From a virus: a DNA stretch of 22,213 nucleotides. The notes beneath the pieces were generated by a model. The model did no database searches and was not told the origin of the DNA. It saw only the letters and a list, made by a program, of their open reading frames with translations. This document shows, piece after piece, positions 1,729 through 20,807 of the stretch. Both the position numbers and the translations under genes were made by a program. Where the stretch lies: positions 1 to 22,213 of IMG/VR virus record IMGVR_UViG_3300018080_000638; one strand, 5' to 3'. Each line of letters opens with the position of its first letter. Position 1 is the stretch's first letter.

Positions 1729-3855
1729 ATGGACGATCCAGAAATCTATTTCTCGGAGGACTTTGATTACGAAGAACTCACCCAATCATATAAGGATAAT
1801 GTCAACGATCTACGAGATTACTTCACGCGATGCTCTCGGAATCGAGATATTCGTAATTGCAAGTGGTCTGGTAAGAGCGATGATTTAAAGAAGAACAACG
1901 AGGATGCGTTCCCCCATGAAGGGGCGAGCGACACCGAGGTTTGGCTGGTCGACCAAAAGATCAATAACAACAAGGCTTTGCGGATGAATGCACTGAGTAA
2001 GTCTCAGATAAGAGCGTATCCCCGCGAGTCTAGCGACGTTCAGCGTAGCACGGAGGTCTCCGTATTCCTTCGCTGGCTACGTGACAGTGGCATCGCCAAC
2101 TTCACCCGTGAGATGGAGCTGGCTTCGTCCTACGGTGACGAGAAGGGGCTGATGGTTACATATGTGGACTGGAAGCCTGCGCGTAAGCGAACATATAAAA
2201 AGCTATTTGAGCTAGACCAAATCATCGAAACAATCCCAGAGCTCGCCGAGATCCTTTCGGATGCAGAGCGAGATGAAGAAGCCTTCGACTGGTTCAACAG
2301 TGTTGATGGATGGGAGCTTAGCGAAGGGCGTGTGAAGGTTGCACTCCGACAGCTGCGCAAGACTGGGGTGGCAGAAATACCTGTAGCAATCTATGACAAA
2401 GGTGGGCCAGATGTGCGCACACTTGCTCCAGATGCGGATGTAATCTTTCCTGCCTATACCATGAACTACCAAGAAGCACCTGAGTGCTATCTTCGTCTCA
2501 TTATGAGCAAGGTAGAGGTCATGGCCATGGTGGATTCTGATGGATGGGACAAGGAGTGGGCTGAATATGTCATCGAAAACCACACCGGTATGACCGAGAG
2601 CCAGTTCAATTCGCCAGTTGGCGTAGTTGGATACGGAAACTTCACACGTTCTGGGCGTAGTGGCGTCACTACCGCTATACAAGCCCGTGATGCTATCGAG
2701 ATTGTATATAAATTTGAGCGAAGAATAGACGAGACCGACAGCTCGGAGGGCATCTATCTCACCGTCTTTGCGCCAGAACTGTCTGGACAAGCTGGCGTGC
2801 CTGAAGTCGCCAAGCGAGTTCTGCTCAGTGGGGTTACGAAATACCCATTCGTTGTCACGCAGATTTGCTACGACAACCGCACGATGTATGAGTCCAACAC
2901 AATCGTCGACAGGCTCAAGGCTGCGCAGAAGACACAGAAGGTGCTGCGCGACAGCTACATTGATGAATCAAGCTGGAGCATTAGCCCAACAATGTGGGTT
3001 GCTCCAGGCGTCGACGCCTCCCAAGTGGGGCCGGGCGCAATTATGTCGGGGCCAGTCGGTCGCAAACCAGAGTATATTGACCGTCCCTCCAAGTTCCAGC
3101 CGAACCTACAGCTGGAAGCACTAATGGTGAATGAGGCTAATCAGATAGCAGGGCAAGATCCAAATGATCCCCTTAGCCAGCAAGTTCAGGGCTTCGGCAT
3201 CAATCGCTTCCTTGAGCATAGCCAGAACGTCCTCAGGGCTGTTTACGATGCCTACAAGATGAAAGGGCCTAATGAACTGTTCTTCCGCGTAACGGGGCGT
3301 CCAGAGCCAATCCAGTTCACTAAGACGGGTGGCGAGGGCGACATGGATGTTGTGGTCTCTTTCAATAGCACATACAATGACCCAGAGAAGACGGAGAAGA
3401 TGTTGAGTGGCTTGTATCAGATTATGCAATTTGATCGCAGTGGCCGCGTCAACAGCGAAGCAATCACTGACATTGCCTTATCCGCAATTGACCCAATGCT
3501 TGCCGACCTAGTGCTTATGCCTAGTGAGCAGGGGAGCGAGAAGGTTCGCAATGAAACCCTGTCCGACATCTCGCAAATGGCTAATGAAATTCCACGGAAT
3601 GCACCAAAGAATGCGTCCCAGTTGCGTATGCAGACGGTGCAGGACTACCGTTCGCAGCAAGAGCAAATTCTTGCGCAAACCGGTTCCAGCAAGCTAGCTT
3701 CGTCTCCAGCCTTCCAGTTCTACCTTGGGGAGTATGAGAAACAATTGCAAATGCAGCTAGATCAACAAGTGAATGCCACCGAGAACGGCATCCTTGGCAC
3801 ACAAGCAGCCCGTATGGGCGGCAATACTCAACCGATGACCAATGAAGGACAGTAA
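1729..3855 (+). CDS. Portal protein
   Basis: A 708-residue protein, in the size range of the large podovirus portals (P22-like). The portal is the dodecameric ring at one head vertex through which DNA enters and leaves; it docks the terminase and the tail adaptor. Evidence is the position between terminase and scaffold/capsid, the length, and a layout typical of portals: an acidic N-terminus, a long mixed alpha/beta middle, helical segments around residues 455-520 (NEANQIAGQDPNDPLSQ and following), and a Gln-rich helical C-terminus (QLQMQLDQQ) like a barrel. The ATG at 1729 has no clear Shine-Dalgarno sequence. The stop overlaps the next start by 14 bases. I cannot name the closest portal family from sequence alone. 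Confidence 0.85.
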   Translation: MDDPEIYFSEDFDYEELTQSYKDNVNDLRDYFTRCSRNRDIRNCKWSGKSDDLKKNNEDAFPHEGASDTEVWLVDQKINNNKALRMNALSKSQIRAYPRESSDVQRSTEVSVFLRWLRDSGIANFTREMELASSYGDEKGLMVTYVDWKPARKRTYKKLFELDQIIETIPELAEILSDAERDEEAFDWFNSVDGWELSEGRVKVALRQLRKTGVAEIPVAIYDKGGPDVRTLAPDADVIFPAYTMNYQEAPECYLRLIMSKVEVMAMVDSDGWDKEWAEYVIENHTGMTESQFNSPVGVVGYGNFTRSGRSGVTTAIQARDAIEIVYKFERRIDETDSSEGIYLTVFAPELSGQAGVPEVAKRVLLSGVTKYPFVVTQICYDNRTMYESNTIVDRLKAAQKTQKVLRDSYIDESSWSISPTMWVAPGVDASQVGPGAIMSGPVGRKPEYIDRPSKFQPNLQLEALMVNEANQIAGQDPNDPLSQQVQGFGINRFLEHSQNVLRAVYDAYKMKGPNELFFRVTGRPEPIQFTKTGGEGDMDVVVSFNSTYNDPEKTEKMLSGLYQIMQFDRSGRVNSEAITDIALSAIDPMLADLVLMPSEQGSEKVRNETLSDISQMANEIPRNAPKNASQLRMQTVQDYRSQQEQILAQTGSSKLASSPAFQFYLGEYEKQLQMQLDQQVNATENGILGTQAARMGGNTQPMTNEGQ

Positions 3856-4113: not shown

Positions 4114-4158
4114 GCCGATTACGAACAACACCTAGTTCGGTTAAATTGTAGGTAGATT

Positions 4159-5247
4159 ATGATAGACATAGCAGACACGGCTAACCTTGAGGCCGAACAA
4201 GTTCAAGAGATTGCAAAACCATTGACATTAGCTGAGGCGCGAGCCGCACGGATGTCAAAGATTGAGCAAAGTAGCGCGACCGAGATCGAGGAAGCCGAGG
4301 CTAAACCAGATGCCCCAGAAGTTCCAGAGGAACCAACGGAAATTGAGGAGCCAGAATCGGATGAAGTCGAGGAGGTCGTTGAAGACGGAGACGTTCTTTC
4401 ACAGGTTGACGAGATTGATGTGGATTCTCTTTCTGATGACGACATCTACGCACTAGCCAAACTTAAGGGGATTGATATTGAAAATCCAAAGAGCAGCAAG
4501 GCGTGGGCAGAGCAACGGAAAGAAATCAAAGCACTGAAGGAGCAGATTGAAACTGCACAGCGAGAGAAAGAGGAAGCCCTCGCACTTGCACCAGTCAGCG
4601 ATAACCCATTTGCAAATCTGCGTGACACAGAGTCCGTAGACAGAGCAATTGAGCAGGCTGAATTAAATGCCGAATACTGGAACGAACAACTGATTCTCAA
4701 TCAAGAGACCCAGTGGGACGAAAATTCAGGCAGGGACATTAAAGGTGTAATGCACGAAGGCAAGTTTCACGCGGCAGAAGCCATTTTACAGTTTGTAAAG
4801 GGTGAACGTGCCAAGGTGAAACCACTCTCAGAGCGCAAGTCAGAAATTGCAAAGCAATCAGAGTTGTTCGCCGACGAAGGTGACAAGATTGCTTCCATTA
4901 AGTCTGAACTGGCTCTGGATGGAGAAGTAGGCGAGTCCTACGAGGCCATGCTGAAAAGCCCTAAGTTCGCATTAGTCAAGTCTCTCATTCCTGAGTATGG
5001 GATGGAATTGTTGGAATTGCTGGGACACGCCGCACGATCAAAGGCGGGAGTCACAACCAAACCAACCATTAAGCGAAAAGCACCCAAGTCAAAGGATGAG
5101 AACATTTCGATCGGAAGCACTGGTAGAACATCTTCCAATGATTCTGGTCGGGAAACAGCCTTAAACAAGATCGTTAACGGCAGCGGCTACAATTACAAGC
5201 AAAAAATGGATGCTATGCGTGAATTAAGAATACTACGCAACAAATAA
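4159..5247 (+). CDS. Scaffolding protein
   Basis: A 362-residue protein lying directly between portal and capsid genes, the standard place for the internal scaffold that guides procapsid assembly and then leaves. Residues about 40-100 are extremely acidic and Pro/Glu-rich (EEAEAKPDAPEVPEEPTEI), followed by a predicted coiled coil (KEIKALKEQIETAQREKEEA, about residues 115-140). The C-terminal 60 residues are basic (TIKRKAPKSKDE near 310 and a final helix KQKMDAMRELRILRNK), matching the basic capsid-binding tail of known scaffolds. There is only a weak GGTAG ribosome-site candidate. Expression is probably driven by the motif at 4091-4113. No protease gene is seen nearby. Confidence 0.85.
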   Translation: MIDIADTANLEAEQVQEIAKPLTLAEARAARMSKIEQSSATEIEEAEAKPDAPEVPEEPTEIEEPESDEVEEVVEDGDVLSQVDEIDVDSLSDDDIYALAKLKGIDIENPKSSKAWAEQRKEIKALKEQIETAQREKEEALALAPVSDNPFANLRDTESVDRAIEQAELNAEYWNEQLILNQETQWDENSGRDIKGVMHEGKFHAAEAILQFVKGERAKVKPLSERKSEIAKQSELFADEGDKIASIKSELALDGEVGESYEAMLKSPKFALVKSLIPEYGMELLELLGHAARSKAGVTTKPTIKRKAPKSKDENISIGSTGRTSSNDSGRETALNKIVNGSGYNYKQKMDAMRELRILRNK

Positions 5248-6278: not shown

Positions 6279-6551
6279 ATGAAAAAAACACCAAGACAAA
6301 AGCTACAGGAACTCCCAATCCACGAGAAGATTGCCTTGATCAAGGGTATCAAAGCAAATGACCCTAAAGTGTTGCAATACTATTACCGCAACTTCGCCGA
6401 AACGGGTAAGTTGAGGAAGGGAAAACAGATGGATCAAATGCACTACATGATTGCTCGGCAAGAGTGCGAACAAGTTGACGGAGTGGGTGGAAACTCAGAC
6501 TTCGACAAATACATTTTCAAAAAAGGCTATGAAGCCGCAATGTTAGCATAA
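6279..6551 (+). CDS. Hypothetical small basic protein after capsid
   Basis: A 90-residue unrecognised protein with a basic N-terminus (MKKTPRQKLQELPIHEKIAL) and a predicted helical body. The start codon sits immediately after a strong hairpin and there is no room for a Shine-Dalgarno sequence, so initiation must be leaderless, coupled, or unusual. The next gene begins in its TAATG stop-start overlap. The position between capsid and adaptor genes suggests a head-completion role, but nothing in the sequence shows it. Confidence 0.7.
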   Translation: MKKTPRQKLQELPIHEKIALIKGIKANDPKVLQYYYRNFAETGKLRKGKQMDQMHYMIARQECEQVDGVGGNSDFDKYIFKKGYEAAMLA

Positions 6552-7171
6552 TGGCATTAGGAACACGCACATATCAAGAGCTATACGACTTAATCCTCGC
6601 CCGCGCGGGTGGTGGAATTTCCGCAAATGCCAAGACTCGGATACAGGCTCTGGCAAATAGCGCAGCGCAGATTGCGATTGATGAAAGCCCCTACTGGCCT
6701 CGGCTACTGGTTCTGGAAGAACGGACAGTGACAAATGGGTATGTAGATTACGAAGAGGTTGGCAAGGGCACGATAGACGAAGTGCACGGTGTCTGGGATG
6801 GTGCTAAATGGACGGGAGCTTCGCCCCAGAGCTTGAACTTCTACCCAGACGGCAATGGTATTAGGATTACGAACGGCGATACGGCTACCGTGTATGTGGC
6901 GTATAAGAAGGTGCTGACCGATATATATGGTGATGGAACAAGTGGAACGGTGAGCGACGTGCCACGCGAGTGGTTCGAGTTTATGGCGTATCACGCAGCC
7001 TTCAGCTATCAAGTGGCAGAGCGCGTAGGTATTGAGCAAATGACCATTGCGTATCGTGACGTGCAATCCCGACTTGATACACAACTCTTGAAGATTAGCA
7101 GACAGGGCATTTGGAGGACAATTGCCAACCAGCTTGAAACGTATTACGGTAGAGATGTGAGTGTTAGCTAA
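6551..7171 (+). CDS. Probable head-tail adaptor (tail tubular A-like)
   Basis: A 206-residue protein, close in size to T7 gp11 (196 residues) and P22 gp4-type adaptors that join the portal ring to the tail. It starts with a helical region (TYQELYDLILARAGG, then ARIQALANSAAQIAID-like helices), has a central beta part (residues about 60-130, with VDYEEVGKGTIDEV and VYVAYKKVL), and ends in helices containing REWFEFMAYHAAFSYQVAE, a pattern usual for this group. It begins in a TAATG overlap with the preceding gene and overlaps the next gene the same way. Homology is judged from layout and position, not from a search. Confidence 0.65.
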   Translation: MALGTRTYQELYDLILARAGGGISANAKTRIQALANSAAQIAIDESPYWPRLLVLEERTVTNGYVDYEEVGKGTIDEVHGVWDGAKWTGASPQSLNFYPDGNGIRITNGDTATVYVAYKKVLTDIYGDGTSGTVSDVPREWFEFMAYHAAFSYQVAERVGIEQMTIAYRDVQSRLDTQLLKISRQGIWRTIANQLETYYGRDVSVS

Positions 7172-9161: not shown

Positions 9162-9602
9162 ATGAATACGATCCAAGATTATGCCGAGCTAGTTTCACTA
9201 GGCATGACGATTCCAACAGTTGTGCTGGCAATCGCCGTAGTCCACATGTGGATGCCATCAGCGAAAGAAGCATGGAAGCAAGAAAGTAAATCCGGACATG
9301 ACTGGTTTATCATGGGCGTCGTCGCTGGATTCTGCGGCTCCGCTCTCGACAACATTTACTGGTTCCTGCCTTGGACGGCAGCCTTCCTAGACCATCCAGC
9401 ATTCGCAGACCTGACAAACTTTGGCGTCTTCTTTAACATTTTCTTCAGGCAAGGACTTGGAATAGTTGCAGCATTCTGCCACTTACGTGCAGCTGAACTG
9501 TCTACTCGGCCAAAATTGAAGTTCCTCAATTCCGTGCTTGTTTCATCCTACTTGCTGGGCATTGCTTACGCAATTATTCTCGTAATTTCATATGGAAACT
9601 GA
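9162..9602 (+). CDS. Four-helix membrane protein, holin candidate
   Basis: A 146-residue protein with about four hydrophobic segments: residues 14-30 (GMTIPTVVLAIAVVHMW), 47-70, 88-110 and 122-143 (NSVLVSSYLLGIAYAIILVI). It begins the block of small membrane and secreted proteins at 9162-11209. Its place beside a TM/coiled-coil protein and a lipoprotein suggests a holin or another lysis-associated membrane protein, but it is larger than most holins and I recognise no holin family. The start follows the previous stop directly (TAAATG); the end overlaps the next start as TGATG. Confidence 0.68.
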   Translation: MNTIQDYAELVSLGMTIPTVVLAIAVVHMWMPSAKEAWKQESKSGHDWFIMGVVAGFCGSALDNIYWFLPWTAAFLDHPAFADLTNFGVFFNIFFRQGLGIVAAFCHLRAAELSTRPKLKFLNSVLVSSYLLGIAYAIILVISYGN

Positions 9603-9817
9603 TGGACGTTGGGCATCTAATAACGCTAGTGCTGGCAGCCGGGGGTGCTCTCACGGCTGCTATTGGCGTCATGTATCGAACCATCATGGAATTGAACAAA
9701 GATCAGGCAAAGATTCGTGAAGAACTCGGCGAGATGCGAGGTAAGAACAAGGGCATTAAGAATTTATCAGAAGAAGTGTTACAAGTAGTCCACAATGCTT
9801 TGAATAACAAGGAATGA
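9602..9817 (+). CDS. Short TM plus coiled-coil protein, inner-spanin or XhlA-like candidate
   Basis: A 71-residue protein. Residues about 5-27 form one membrane helix (LITLVLAAGGALTAAIGVMY), followed by a charged coiled coil (ELNKDQAKIREELGEMRGKN) and an amphipathic C-terminus. This plan fits an inner-membrane spanin subunit or an XhlA-like holin helper. It is shorter than most i-spanins. A lipoprotein gene follows 40 bases downstream, which supports a spanin pair. It is coupled to the preceding gene by TGATG. Confidence 0.65.
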   Translation: MDVGHLITLVLAAGGALTAAIGVMYRTIMELNKDQAKIREELGEMRGKNKGIKNLSEEVLQVVHNALNNKE

Positions 9818-9857: not shown

Positions 9858-10061
9858 ATGATTACAAAAATGACATACCTACTCTTAGCTTTAGCCACCA
9901 TCTGCTTCGCCCTAACTGGCTGTATCAATATCAAACAAGCGGAAATCAATGAGGCCACGTTTAATACGGCAGGGTGGAAATCCCAGGCAGGAGTCAGCGG
10001 AGATGCAACCATCGAAGCCACAACCACTCCAACTACCGACATAAGCCCTATGGGACTATGA
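9858..10061 (+). CDS. Small lipoprotein, outer-spanin candidate
   Basis: A 67-residue protein with a lipoprotein signal peptide: basic start MITKM, hydrophobic YLLLALATICFALTG, and lipobox ALTGC with the lipidated Cys at residue 21. The mature part is about 46 residues and Thr/Asp-rich at the end (ATTTPTTDISPMGL). A lipoprotein of this size next to a TM/coiled-coil protein in a lysis-like block is what an o-spanin (Rz1-like) would look like, although it is not proline-rich like Rz1. Its stop overlaps the next start as ATGA. The leader is A-rich (AAATAAAATAAAATACC) with no Shine-Dalgarno sequence. Confidence 0.72.
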   Translation: MITKMTYLLLALATICFALTGCINIKQAEINEATFNTAGWKSQAGVSGDATIEATTTPTTDISPMGL

Positions 10062-10495
10062 ATATTTCTGGACAATCCATACACCACATGATGCACAGGC
10101 GATACCCGAATGCGGATATCTTTGTGCTAGACGAAACGTATGAATTGCCAACTCGTGACGTGATCCAAGCGGCCTACAACAAATTTCAGCGAGGCTTATG
10201 GACATACAAATTAACCAAATGGCTGCGCAACAAGTGGGACTGTGACTCATTCGCATGGAGCTTTAAGGCTTCCTGCACGGTTGGTAATGCCCTCTCCAAG
10301 AATACACATGCTGCACCAATCGGATTCATCTGTTACTTCGTCGACGGCAACCAATCCAAAGGTCATGCAATTAACAACGCGGTATGGGGTGACAGTCAGC
10401 TTAGTGTGGTTTGCGAGATCGAACCACAGCCAGAAGGAGGAATCGTGGAACTCACCAAGGAAGAAAGGGACAGCGCATGGCTCGTAGTATTGTAA
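10058..10495 (+). CDS. Papain-like / MOA-type putative cysteine peptidase
   Basis: A 145-residue protein. I chose the ATG at 10058, which overlaps the lipoprotein stop as ATGA; the upstream ATG at 9974 would give an Arg/His-rich tail that is a shadow of the lipoprotein frame. Seen: NKWDCDSFAWSF with Cys62, then KGHAINNAVW with His103, then EIEPQPEGGIVEL, with Glu122/Gln124 as a possible third residue. This Cys..GHA..EPQ order resembles the C-terminal papain-like domain of the Marasmius agglutinin family, a pattern also seen in phage proteins annotated lectin MOA-related (from memory). No signal peptide is seen. Its place inside the lysis-like block makes it a candidate cell-wall peptidase or endolysin. 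That is inference: no search or structure was run. Confidence 0.62.
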   Translation: MNISGQSIHHMMHRRYPNADIFVLDETYELPTRDVIQAAYNKFQRGLWTYKLTKWLRNKWDCDSFAWSFKASCTVGNALSKNTHAAPIGFICYFVDGNQSKGHAINNAVWGDSQLSVVCEIEPQPEGGIVELTKEERDSAWLVVL

Positions 10496-10665
10496 TTGCT
10501 CTTTGTGTATTGTTCTTGTCTATCACAGCGATTGTGTATGCTGTGTGCGCCTCCGACATCTCTGTTAACGTAAAGGGCGCGTATGAGATTAAGGTGGACA
10601 TGGGGCAAGGCTCTCAGCCAATCATCATTCACCAACACATAAAGGAGGCGAACTTCGGTGCGTAA
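10477..10665 (+). CDS. Small signal-anchored protein in lysis-like block
   Basis: A 62-residue protein. I chose the ATG at 10477 because it is preceded by a purine-rich AAGGAAGAAAGG and gives a clean signal peptide or anchor (ARSIVIALCVLFLSITAIVY); upstream starts in the same frame give an Arg-rich tail read from the preceding gene. A possible cleavage site follows AVCAS. The exported remainder is about 38 residues, beta-like (DISVNVKGAYEIKVDMGQ). It overlaps the gene before it by 19 bases and the gene after it by 8. The role is unknown; it may be a further lysis accessory or a periplasmic small protein. Confidence 0.6.
   Translation: MARSIVIALCVLFLSITAIVYAVCASDISVNVKGAYEIKVDMGQGSQPIIIHQHIKEANFGA
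10640..10648 (+). promoter_or_regulatory. Strong Shine-Dalgarno deciding a GTG start
   Basis: The run containing AAAGGAGG ends 9 bases before the GTG at 10658 and lies inside the 3' end of the preceding gene. It supports GTG at 10658 as the start of the hydrolase-like gene although the codon is not ATG. Confidence 0.7.
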
Positions 10666-11209
10666 GGCAATCATTATTTTTAGCGGATTTACGCAGGGCT
10701 GGAGCAAGAACACCGGTTCAGACAAGTTGTATATGGACATGCAGTCTTTTCAAAAGATTGATGGACATGACGACATGGTTCTTGTTTACAAGAAGGAGTG
10801 GAAAGACTGGGAGAAGCTCGTGGAATGGCTGAACATGCACAAGTTCTCAGAAGCCTTTGTATGCGCTTACAGCTGGGGGGCTGGTTACGGCCTTCGGGAA
10901 TTCTCCAAAGCCTTTGACGGGCAAATTACGGCGGTTCTGTGCGATCCTGTGCACAGGAGCAAGTGGCCTTGGATGCGGTGGAAGTCCATTTCCTCTTGGG
11001 TTACACCAATTGTCAAATATGGAGCCAACGTCAAGGTTGTGAAACATTTTACGCAAAAACTAAATGAGCCGGGCGGCGACAGAGTTGTAACCGTCCAGCC
11101 AAAGCCCTCTTATATCACCCTACCATATGTGCATCAAGAAATGGATGATGCGCTAGAATACCACAAGGCCGCCTACGATCAAGTTAGGTTATGGCTCAAA
11201 TCACATTAA
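10658..11209 (+). CDS. Alpha/beta-hydrolase-like protein in lysis-like block
   Basis: A 183-residue protein starting with GTG after a strong ribosome site. Seen: an N-terminal strand (KAIIIFSGFTQGW, like the first strand and oxyanion loop), a nucleophile-elbow-like AYSWGAG with Ser72, an acid strand end AVLCDPVHR with Asp96, and a late His in LPYVHQEMDD (His159). This order fits a Ser-Asp-His triad of an alpha/beta hydrolase, although the elbow begins with Ala instead of Gly and the protein is short for the fold. The substrate is unknown. In this block it could act on envelope lipids or esters, but it could also have an unrelated role. No signal peptide is present. Confidence 0.6.
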   Translation: MRKAIIIFSGFTQGWSKNTGSDKLYMDMQSFQKIDGHDDMVLVYKKEWKDWEKLVEWLNMHKFSEAFVCAYSWGAGYGLREFSKAFDGQITAVLCDPVHRSKWPWMRWKSISSWVTPIVKYGANVKVVKHFTQKLNEPGGDRVVTVQPKPSYITLPYVHQEMDDALEYHKAAYDQVRLWLKSH

Positions 11210-17743: not shown

Positions 17744-20593
17744 ATGCAAGACTTTACAATAGTTGATGATGATACCGGGATGGAAGTCACCATTTCTGGC
17801 GATCAAGCCCCTGCGCCAGACGAGTTCCCCGAACTGTTTGCAGCCGCTAGAAAACAGTCGTATGAGAAGCTTGCCAGTGGCGAGTTTAAGCTAGGCGAAG
17901 ACCTGCAGCACCTAGATAAGGCCGAGCAACGTGAAAGCATTCGCAAGCACGCATCTAGAGCAATGGGTATTTCACCGCAAGATGTAGATATTGAGAGCGG
18001 CATGGGCATGTGGGACAGGACAAAGTTGAGCTTCCAGCCAACCGACGCAGACCGCATGAAGCAACTGGAGGATGACTATGGTAAGGAGAATGTCTCCATG
18101 CTTCAGATAGGCGACAAGCAGAAGATGTTTTACCGAGACCCAAAGACCAAGAAGATGACGATGGTTGATGAAATGGGTGCTTCGTTGGCTGATTTTACAG
18201 CGGACATTGCTGGGACTGCACTACCAATAGCTGGAGCCATTGGAGCCGCAGTAGCAACTGGCGGCGCATCCATACCACTAATGGCTGGCGCAGCTGCATT
18301 GGGCGGATTTGCCGCTAGTGCAGGTCAGGATATTGCGGTTCGTGCTGGCTCGGATGAAGACATACGTCTAGGGGAGATTGCCAAGCGCAGGGGTATTGAG
18401 GCCGCGATAGGCATTCCGATTGATTTAGTTACTGGTGGCTTTGGTCGCGTTATGGGCAAAGCTTTTGCCAAGCGCAGTGGCCTGCAAGCCATTGATGAAC
18501 TCACTAGGGGAACCAAGGAACTCAATGAAGCCTATGGCACTCAGATTAAATTAACTGCCGCACAATCGGCAGACCCAGACGCCTCGATTACGCAAAGTTT
18601 GCGAGCAGGACTAGACCCTAGGGGTCGGGAGGCTCAATGGTATAATAAGCAACTGGATGAAATTGGGAAGATTGATAAAGCCATTAAAACTGGCGTTGCT
18701 TCAGACGAACCGGTTGAGAATGTCATGGCTCGCATGGCTGATGAGCATTTAACAAAACTTGACGACTATAGGGCAAGAATGGATGCGCTCGATGAAGTCA
18801 AGATCAATCAGCAAGTGGCAGCCAAGAAGCAAACAGCCGAATATGCTGCTGAGCAAAAGACGAAGATGAAGAAACAGCGCCAGCTAGAGCATGAAGCCCG
18901 CGTTGACAAATATGAAACCGCATACAACAAGGCTCGTAATAGCGTAGAAAAACTTGACCGAGTGAGGGGCGGAGAGGTTAGGGGGCAGGTCGAGCGCCAA
19001 TACGCTTCTAAGCAAAAAGCCAACGATGACTTATACGAAGAAGCATACCGCAGGACGGATACGCCACAGGCAAACACACCGGTTGCCGATGTCCAGAAGG
19101 TAGTTGATCGAATCGACGAAGGCCAATTTATTGCTGACTCGGCAGAGCTTCGAGCCTTGCAGGCACTTAAAAAGAGGATAGCGGACAACCCAGAAGACCT
19201 GACCTTCAGGGAGCTTGACGCATTTGTTCGCCAGTTTGGGGATCGCGTCAACTTCAAGAAGAAGCACGGACTGAAGTTTGACGAAATCAACTTCAGGAAG
19301 GCTTACGGACAATTGAATAAACTATGGAATGATGCCATCGGCGCACCAAAGAAACTAGGTGGTCGTGGTGCCGGAAAACCCGCAAAAGATGCGCACATGG
19401 CTGCCCGTAAAGACTTCCGTGAGAACATCTTACCATACACCGACGGAGAGCCATCTAGGATTCTCCAGAAACGTGCTGGCGGTATGGCTGGTGAAACCCT
19501 AGCGGACGAGAAAGTCTTGACGGAATCTTTGTCAACTTCTGCATCCGTAAGGAATTCGATTGCTGCTGGCGCAGATAGGAATACGCTGAAAGACGCATAT
19601 ATGCGTCAAATCCTGCAGCAAGCTGAGGGTGGCAAGCGAATCTCCTATGATGAAAGTGTGCTTGATGAGCTATATAAGACCACGAGTGGACGTGCTGGTG
19701 GGGTTAAGTCTCGGATCGCCAAGATTAACCAAATCCTAGAAGATTCAAAGAAGACACCAGATGCAGTTACAAGGGAGGATTTGCGTGAACTCGTTGATGC
19801 GTTCGATGCTCCAGCAGCGCGAAAGGCCGAAAAAGCGATACGCGACAAGATTAAGCTCAAGGAGGAATACGCCGAAGCCAATAGAAATGTCTTAACCAAG
19901 ATCATTAAGGGCGAGCAGCCTGCACCAGAGGATATTCATATCTTCATTAGTGACATAGCAAAACTGCGACCCAGTGAGATTCAGGGACTATTTGGACGAC
20001 TGTCACCAGCGGAGCAGAACTCGCTCAAGAGAAGCGGCATTGACTGGTTCCTTGAAAAGGCTGGTGCATCTAAAGAGGTATCACAACGGACTTCAGCTCA
20101 AACAGGTGGATTGGCACTATGGGAACCAGATGCGATGGAAGCTTTGTTGAGAGACTCGGCAACGCGATCAAAGTTGGAGGCATTGCTAGGTAAGGACATT
20201 GTGTCCGACTACGCTAAGGCCAATAAGGTTGTGGCCAATGCTGCAATTATCCGCAATGCCAAGGAGGGGGCTAGTAGCCGCGTCGTGTTGACAACGGGTG
20301 CGTCTGGCATCCCGACCCCACTAATTGTATCGCCGGGCATTCCCCGTTGGCTAGGTCGCAAAATGCTCGGAGTGATTCATACGTCCTCCATTGGGCGCAA
20401 CATGCTTAGACGCTACCTGCAATCTCCAAACGAAAAGTCAGCCGAAGACCTGTTCAAGAAGATGTTCTTTACGTCGATTGGGACTAGGGCGGGTATGGCT
20501 TCTGCTGCAGACGAAGCAGGAAAAGACCCCCAGTTCTCTGCATGGCTCCAAGAGTCATTTGCGGAAGGCGGGGAAGGGAACCAAGAACAATAA
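17744..20593 (+). CDS. Large internal virion / ejection protein
   Basis: A 949-residue protein, the largest in the window. The N-terminal 150 residues are mixed alpha/beta with WDRTKLSFQPTDADRMKQLE and GDKQKMFYRDPKTKKM, a segment I associate with phage internal virion proteins. Then comes a Gly/Ala-rich hydrophobic stretch (about 156-194: ADIAGTALPIAGAIGAAVAT) that could insert in or cross a membrane during DNA entry. The rest is long, charged and helical with coiled-coil parts (KKQTAEYAAEQKTKMKKQRQ, about 350-400). No lysozyme or transglycosylase motif is seen. It sits with the preceding Gln/Ala-rich protein as the ejection pair at the end of the rightward block. Confidence 0.77.
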   Translation: MQDFTIVDDDTGMEVTISGDQAPAPDEFPELFAAARKQSYEKLASGEFKLGEDLQHLDKAEQRESIRKHASRAMGISPQDVDIESGMGMWDRTKLSFQPTDADRMKQLEDDYGKENVSMLQIGDKQKMFYRDPKTKKMTMVDEMGASLADFTADIAGTALPIAGAIGAAVATGGASIPLMAGAAALGGFAASAGQDIAVRAGSDEDIRLGEIAKRRGIEAAIGIPIDLVTGGFGRVMGKAFAKRSGLQAIDELTRGTKELNEAYGTQIKLTAAQSADPDASITQSLRAGLDPRGREAQWYNKQLDEIGKIDKAIKTGVASDEPVENVMARMADEHLTKLDDYRARMDALDEVKINQQVAAKKQTAEYAAEQKTKMKKQRQLEHEARVDKYETAYNKARNSVEKLDRVRGGEVRGQVERQYASKQKANDDLYEEAYRRTDTPQANTPVADVQKVVDRIDEGQFIADSAELRALQALKKRIADNPEDLTFRELDAFVRQFGDRVNFKKKHGLKFDEINFRKAYGQLNKLWNDAIGAPKKLGGRGAGKPAKDAHMAARKDFRENILPYTDGEPSRILQKRAGGMAGETLADEKVLTESLSTSASVRNSIAAGADRNTLKDAYMRQILQQAEGGKRISYDESVLDELYKTTSGRAGGVKSRIAKINQILEDSKKTPDAVTREDLRELVDAFDAPAARKAEKAIRDKIKLKEEYAEANRNVLTKIIKGEQPAPEDIHIFISDIAKLRPSEIQGLFGRLSPAEQNSLKRSGIDWFLEKAGASKEVSQRTSAQTGGLALWEPDAMEALLRDSATRSKLEALLGKDIVSDYAKANKVVANAAIIRNAKEGASSRVVLTTGASGIPTPLIVSPGIPRWLGRKMLGVIHTSSIGRNMLRRYLQSPNEKSAEDLFKKMFFTSIGTRAGMASAADEAGKDPQFSAWLQESFAEGGEGNQEQ

Positions 20594-20595
20594 AT

Positions 20596-20712
20596 ATGCC
20601 AAAGAAACTAGAAAGATGCGTAAAATCCGTAAAGAAAAGCGGAAAGAGCAAGTCATCAGCCTACGCCATTTGCACGGCAGTGTCTAAGCGCAAGGGCAAG
20701 GGGCGTAAATAG
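20596..20712 (+). CDS. Tiny Lys/Ser-rich phage protein
   Basis: A 38-residue protein starting 2 bases after the stop of the large ejection gene: MPKKLERCVKSVKKSGKSKS, then SAYAICTAVSKRKGKGRK. I recognise this as a frequent tiny phage protein (LERCV..V...GKS..SAYAICTA); the function is unknown. It has two cysteines and a basic tail. Its stop codon overlaps the left arm of a possible terminator. Confidence 0.65.
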   Translation: MPKKLERCVKSVKKSGKSKSSAYAICTAVSKRKGKGRK

Positions 20713-20746
20713 CCCTTAATTGCACAGAACATAGCCTAGAAGGGCT
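20711..20746 (+). terminator. Possible rightward terminator of the late block
   Basis: AGCCCTT (20711-20717) pairs with AAGGGCT (20740-20746), with a 22-base loop, followed by TTGGGCTGTTTATT. An alternative shorter pairing uses AGCC at 20733-20736. The T-tract is weak, so this is uncertain, but it sits exactly at the end of the rightward genes. Confidence 0.35.
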
Positions 20747-20779
20747 TTGGGCTGTTTATTGGACACTTGGTATGCAGGC

Positions 20780-20807
20780 AAAAAGAAAGCCCCTTGTGGG
20801 GGCTCTC
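20780..20807 (-). terminator. Leftward terminator facing the late block
   Basis: Read on the minus strand: GAGAGCCCC, loop CACAA, GGGGCTTTC, then TTTTT. The 9-bp stem has one G.U wobble in leftward RNA and an A.C mismatch in rightward RNA, and the T-tract is on the leftward side. It ends the leftward operon at 20868 and prevents collision with the late genes. Confidence 0.8.

Follow-up and report, generated by a model that had tools for sequence, protein, structure and literature searches.

A MOA-like papain-fold cysteine peptidase as a possible lysis enzyme of a tailed phage

The product of a small gene in a virus record is, on balance, read here as an endolysin, the enzyme by which a tailed phage would lyse its host, and it belongs to the papain-like soluble cysteine peptidases of the MOA/PSL type (Marasmius oreades agglutinin and Polyporus squamosus lectin). 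The support for lysis is comparative: the conventional wall-cutting enzyme that relatives encode was not recognised in this phage, and for this reason the MOA-like protein probably represents a phage lysis enzyme of a new type. The window, that is, the whole stretch of DNA that was analysed, is a 22.2-kb IMG/VR virus record with an SU10-type capsid, and its tail fibre gene has DNA in common with the Verrucomicrobia phage P8625. The source phage is probably marine and its host is probably a marine member of the Verrucomicrobia. The features of interest are collected in Table 1.

Table 1. Features of the window (first ten lines) and of two related contigs (last two lines), with predicted roles.
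Feature	Position	Strand	Remark
146-aa polytopic membrane protein	9162..9602	+	holin candidate by architecture only
71-aa protein with a single TM segment at the N terminus and a coiled-coil-like tail	9602..9817	+	putative holin-like/accessory protein, by architecture
67-aa lipoprotein, lipobox LTGC	9858..10061	+	outer-spanin-like by architecture; putative spanin
145-aa MOA-like cysteine peptidase, standalone, papain fold	10058..10495	+	proposed lysis enzyme
Codon W55	10220..10222	+	corresponds to MOA Trp208 of the oxyanion hole; the Cys follows 7 residues later
D61-C62-D63	10238..10246	+	C62 predicted catalytic Cys (MOA Cys215); acidic flanks, possible metal ligands
H103-A104	10364..10369	+	predicted catalytic His (MOA His257); HA invariant
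E122-P123-Q124	10421..10429	+	MOA Glu274 and Gln276 equivalents; EPQ invariant
62-aa signal-anchor protein	10477..10665	+	possible inner-membrane partner of the lipoprotein
183-aa protein with AYSWG	10658..11209	+	alpha/beta-hydrolase-like nucleophile elbow; last block gene before tail fibre gene
SleB-type hydrolase, G005	L034:2916-3272		early region
SleB-type hydrolase, G006	L037:4533-4949		early region

The MOA-like, papain-type identity that the original prediction had proposed is borne out by the profile scores, by the fold and by the residues matched. The Pfam profile Lectin_C_term matches the protein at E=1.9e-4 (22.2 bits, under the curated cut-off of 27.1) and Agglutinin_C at E 0.021; as the score lies under the cut-off, the protein is filed as a divergent homologue and not as a formal Pfam member. 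PSL was matched at E 0.0069 in a phmmer search against the PDB. Using a leave-one-out profile of 11 homologues the protein scores 71.5 bits (E 7e-21), and 2000 shuffled controls reach at most 8.4 bits with the same profile, so that the match to the MOA-type family, judged by these scores, is far above chance. The PHROGs and NCBIfam searches gave nothing useful for this protein, and close relatives were found neither in viral contigs (single-sequence query) nor in 50,697 phage records, nor in plasmids.

The AlphaFold model of the protein (pLDDT 83.7, pTM 0.79) was compared with known structures, a check that had been suggested for the MOA C-terminal domain and for the NlpC/P60 families. The only confident PDB fold matches are PSL (5mua) and MOA (6tsl, 6tsm), with TM 0.69-0.72 and probability 1.00; the best four matches are all PSL or MOA (E 8.9e-5 to 4.3e-4), and the next one, unrelated, appears at E 0.18. 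Among viral models, the fold is matched by an unnamed 137-aa protein and by one from Pyrobaculum filamentous virus 1 (PFV1), its Agglutinin C-terminal protein. Membership of CHAP or NlpC/P60 was rejected, there being no Pfam match to PF05257 or PF00877 and no fold match to either at E <0.001. A fungal chimerolectin was also discarded, since the 145 residues correspond to the protease domain alone, with no N-terminal beta-trefoil lectin.

In MOA, catalysis depends on Cys215 and His257, the latter being oriented by Glu274, whereas the oxyanion hole holds Trp208 and the position of papain Trp177 is taken by Gln276; the enzyme requires calcium or manganese (PMC8244254). All five residues (Trp, Cys, His, Glu and Gln) are matched in the window protein by W55, C62, H103, E122 and Q124, including the Trp-Gln swap (W55, Q124), and in both proteins the Trp lies 7 residues from the Cys and the Glu 2 residues from the Gln. 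The papain-like order of Cys62, His103 and EPQ (122-124), already pointed out in the original prediction, was confirmed in the open reading frame, with the C62 codon at 10241-10243, inside WDCDSFAW, and the H103 codon at 10364-10366, inside GHAINNAVW. The residues D61 and D63 around C62 are compatible with a two-metal site of the MOA type, and D61 is invariant among 16 homologues. A signal peptide or a TM segment was looked for in the 145 residues and none was predicted.

Unrelated phages, prophages and MAGs yielded homologues in profile searches; one such homologue, from phage contig G007, scores above the Agglutinin_C cut-off (27.7 vs 26.8). The pattern D-C-x-x-F...HA...EPQ is shared by all 16 aligned sequences, whose invariant columns are D25, D61, C62, F65, H103, A104 and E122-P123-Q124; the Gln is therefore constant and the Trp position is merely aromatic in several of them. 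Together the homologues make up a widespread, hitherto undescribed family of standalone proteins with viral members, and no account of phage Agglutinin C-terminal proteins was found in the openly accessible literature. The domain also occurs in predicted lipoproteins of cellular Verrucomicrobia (L056, L057, L060 and L067), a putative host protease family, in some of which the Glu of EPQ is changed to Asp (IDPQ/VDPQ); the lipoboxes carried by some cellular homologues indicate that in those cells the envelope is where the domain acts. Besides, MOA-like genes lie on contigs binned as archaeal, from a Methanosarcinales MAG (L027, with a small TM protein and capsid genes beside the MOA-like gene) and a Nitrosopumilus MAG (L028). 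In the cellular homologue L067 the Cys is replaced by Ser, a loss that would suit a remnant of the fold, inactive or without any enzymatic role; for the window protein this is very improbable, considering that Cys, His and Glu are kept in 16/16 homologues as diverse as about 20% identity.

The genes surrounding the MOA-like gene form a compact block. The stop of the lipoprotein gene overlaps the start of the MOA-like gene by 4 bases, and the 3' end of the latter is overlapped by the signal-anchor gene (best start 10477, within the listed open reading frame 10411-10665), so the placement between these two genes that had been described is correct and involves overlaps on both sides. By architecture, the gene would thus have holin- or spanin-like neighbours. 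The polytopic protein upstream had no family match in the Pfam, PHROGs and NCBIfam searches. The signal-anchor gene overlaps in turn the gene at 10658-11209, whose end lies 3 bases short of the tail fibre gene and whose product shows an alternating strand/helix pattern around AYSWG, possibly that of an alpha/beta hydrolase. This product could be, from its sequence pattern, a second enzyme of the lysis block; it had no database match, no related contig and no relatives in any collection searched, and its single-sequence model (pLDDT 51) gave no meaningful fold match.

No Pfam lysin was detected in the window or in the G001 contig, which belongs to the same virus (99.99% identity over 7522 bases) and adds 11.9 kb; together they cover about 34 kb, and about 3 kb of the virus, to judge from G005, is unsampled. 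A lysin hidden in the large virion proteins or in the tail fibre was also considered and discarded, with no Pfam match. The earlier remark that the window has no classical endolysin therefore holds over the extended sequence as well. Structural genes are common to the window and eight related contigs (capsid identity 85-89%), and those related contigs that cover the region have a replacement for the lysis-like block and lack the MOA-like gene. Three of these sisters (G003, G005 and G006) carry instead a SleB-type cell wall hydrolase (PF07486, E 2e-17 to 2e-18); G003 stops short of the late lysis-like block, and both halves of the swap are consequently visible only in G005 and G006. The markers flanking the SleB locus are present in G001 (an 84-aa gene at 6448-6696 and an exonuclease at 2452-3216, together with a helix-turn-helix gene at 4119-4616 read by eye), and the syntenic interval between them, which is sequenced, contains no SleB. 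The absence of the MOA-like gene exactly where the sisters have SleB suggests a functional replacement. The SleB gene of the sister phages is located far from the holin-like genes of their late region.

Phage P8625 (L041) shares with the sister phages two holin-like genes at 20244-20797. Profile searches with the families tested excluded it as a carrier of the MOA-like family and recognised no lysin in it; given that P8625 has neither gene, failure to recognise a lysin says little when taken alone.

A similar neighbourhood is found in phages unrelated to that of the window. In G007 (37.5 kb) the order is MOA-like gene, TM protein, Phage_holin_10 protein (E 2.4e-16, with a lipoprotein-like tail) and terminase, and in G011 (38.4 kb) the MOA-like gene adjoins an apparent terminase small subunit; neither contig has a Pfam lysin. 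In a Verrucomicrobia prophage (L069), read as Mu-like from gene order without profile confirmation, the gene stands beside terminase-like genes and a membrane/lipoprotein gene that matches its G007 counterpart at E 3e-13, and in large phages, T4-like ones among them (L017-L021, L052), the MOA-like gene overlaps a short lipoprotein gene. An automatic count placed a TM/lipoprotein gene next to 6 of 16 homologue loci, vs 8.5% of other genes (P 0.0014), the loci not being fully independent and the ORF caller having missed the overlapping neighbours of the window gene itself. Two of the membrane genes (L011:6758-7363 and L069:9155-9781) combine a holin-like segment at the N terminus with a C-terminal part that bears a lipobox, possibly as a holin-spanin fusion or through an internal start.

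Some homologues are located outside lysis-like blocks (L047, L051, L070, L024, L026 and L028): that of L070 is among tail genes, and those of L051 and L047 are in other contexts. Directly upstream of the L047 gene there is a TM-anchored, transglutaminase-like protein (L047:3998-4681; FDCDDQAEN...SHSF). Such locations, the missing signal peptide and the position of the window gene shortly before that of the tail fibre would suit an intracellular protease, acting in host takeover, anti-defence or virion-protein processing, for which the vicinity of membrane genes would be incidental. This explanation is improbable, because in unrelated phages the gene is repeatedly accompanied by holin, TM or lipoprotein genes and the SleB swap is seen in the sister phages. 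Of the original proposal of a possible new lysis enzyme, then, the MOA-like papain-type part stands, and the lysis part is partly supported by comparison, through the SleB swap, the holin/lipoprotein neighbours in unrelated phages and the lack of any other recognised lysin in three MOA-type phages. Of the two observations that the original prediction had named as contrary, a fold without Cys-His contact and a conventional endolysin elsewhere in the genome, neither was encountered at the level of the overall fold and over the about 34 kb sampled.

In lysis, the protein, having no signal sequence, would build up in the cytoplasm, and the membrane protein or proteins encoded upstream (9162-9817) would open the inner membrane and allow it to reach the periplasm. 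Its C62/H103/E122 site would then cut envelope peptide bonds, most likely in the peptide part of peptidoglycan, which is the first choice of substrate. By analogy with MOA, a divalent metal (calcium) might switch the enzyme on in the periplasm; the expected activation by calcium implies that it would be kept silent in the low-calcium cytoplasm. Finally, the lipoprotein and the signal-anchor protein may act as a spanin-like pair to breach the outer membrane. The biochemically known relatives are proteases and none of them is a peptidoglycan hydrolase, which counts against the endolysin reading.

A different proposal is that the enzyme is a lysis-time protease directed against envelope proteins (lipoproteins, outer-membrane or S-layer proteins) and not against peptidoglycan, the wall being broken by another unrecognised enzyme or not needing to be broken. 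The host of PFV1 is not known to have peptidoglycan. This possible, if unlikely, rival is serious because PFV1 bursts such cells and yet carries the fold, and PFV1 together with the contigs binned as archaeal argues for a peptide or protein target beyond peptidoglycan; if L027 and L028 are true archaeal viruses, the target there cannot be bacterial peptidoglycan. MOA cleaves peptides and proteins (PMC8244254), PFV1 leaves its host by rupturing the envelope (PMC12662031), and the neighbour at 10658-11209 could provide the second enzyme. Nevertheless, the MOA-like gene is missing exactly in those sisters that carry the SleB wall hydrolase, and the window and G001 yielded no further wall enzyme. 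A wider idea, which is doubtful, would make the calcium-switched MOA-type peptidase a new class of virus lysis enzymes common to tailed bacteriophages and archaeal viruses, cutting envelope peptide bonds with or without peptidoglycan, with the mushroom toxin domain drawn from the same pool.

Phage lysis enzymes fall into a limited set of folds, to which a peptidase of the MOA type, if confirmed as a lysis enzyme, would add a branch. Lysis genes would then be recognisable in many uncultured phages that have none annotated, a mushroom defence protease would be linked to a viral family, a calcium switch would be suggested as what keeps a lysis enzyme safe until it is needed, and a testable idea would be available on how archaeal viruses like PFV1 rupture a cell without peptidoglycan.

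As regards known systems, the closest solved relatives of the window protein are mushroom defence proteins. With the protease domain of MOA and PSL (Agglutinin_C PF18021, Lectin_C_term PF18022) it has in common the fold, the identity and order of Trp, Cys, His, Glu and Gln and the acidic flanks of the Cys, at about 20-30% identity; unlike them, it is a standalone protein without beta-trefoil lectin encoded in a viral gene block. The CHAP and NlpC/P60 endolysins (such as LysK, LysGH15 and PlyC) likewise use a papain-like Cys-His pair in phage lysis, whereas the window protein matches neither by Pfam or fold. LysGH15 is also cited as binding calcium (PMC10318531), and in the fungal agglutinin one strand is permuted and reversed (PMC10318531), which places the agglutinin in a different superfamily branch from CHAP and NlpC/P60. 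The SleB-type hydrolase (Hydrolase_2) has the same proposed role and occurs only in relatives without the MOA-like gene, but it belongs to an unrelated family and its locus is in the early region, not in the late lysis-like block. The PFV1 protein (A0A140F3M5, 'Agglutinin C-terminal domain-containing protein') has the same predicted fold (E 9e-4, probability 1.00), and PFV1 is a lytic virus, but one of archaea, unlike the phage of the window.
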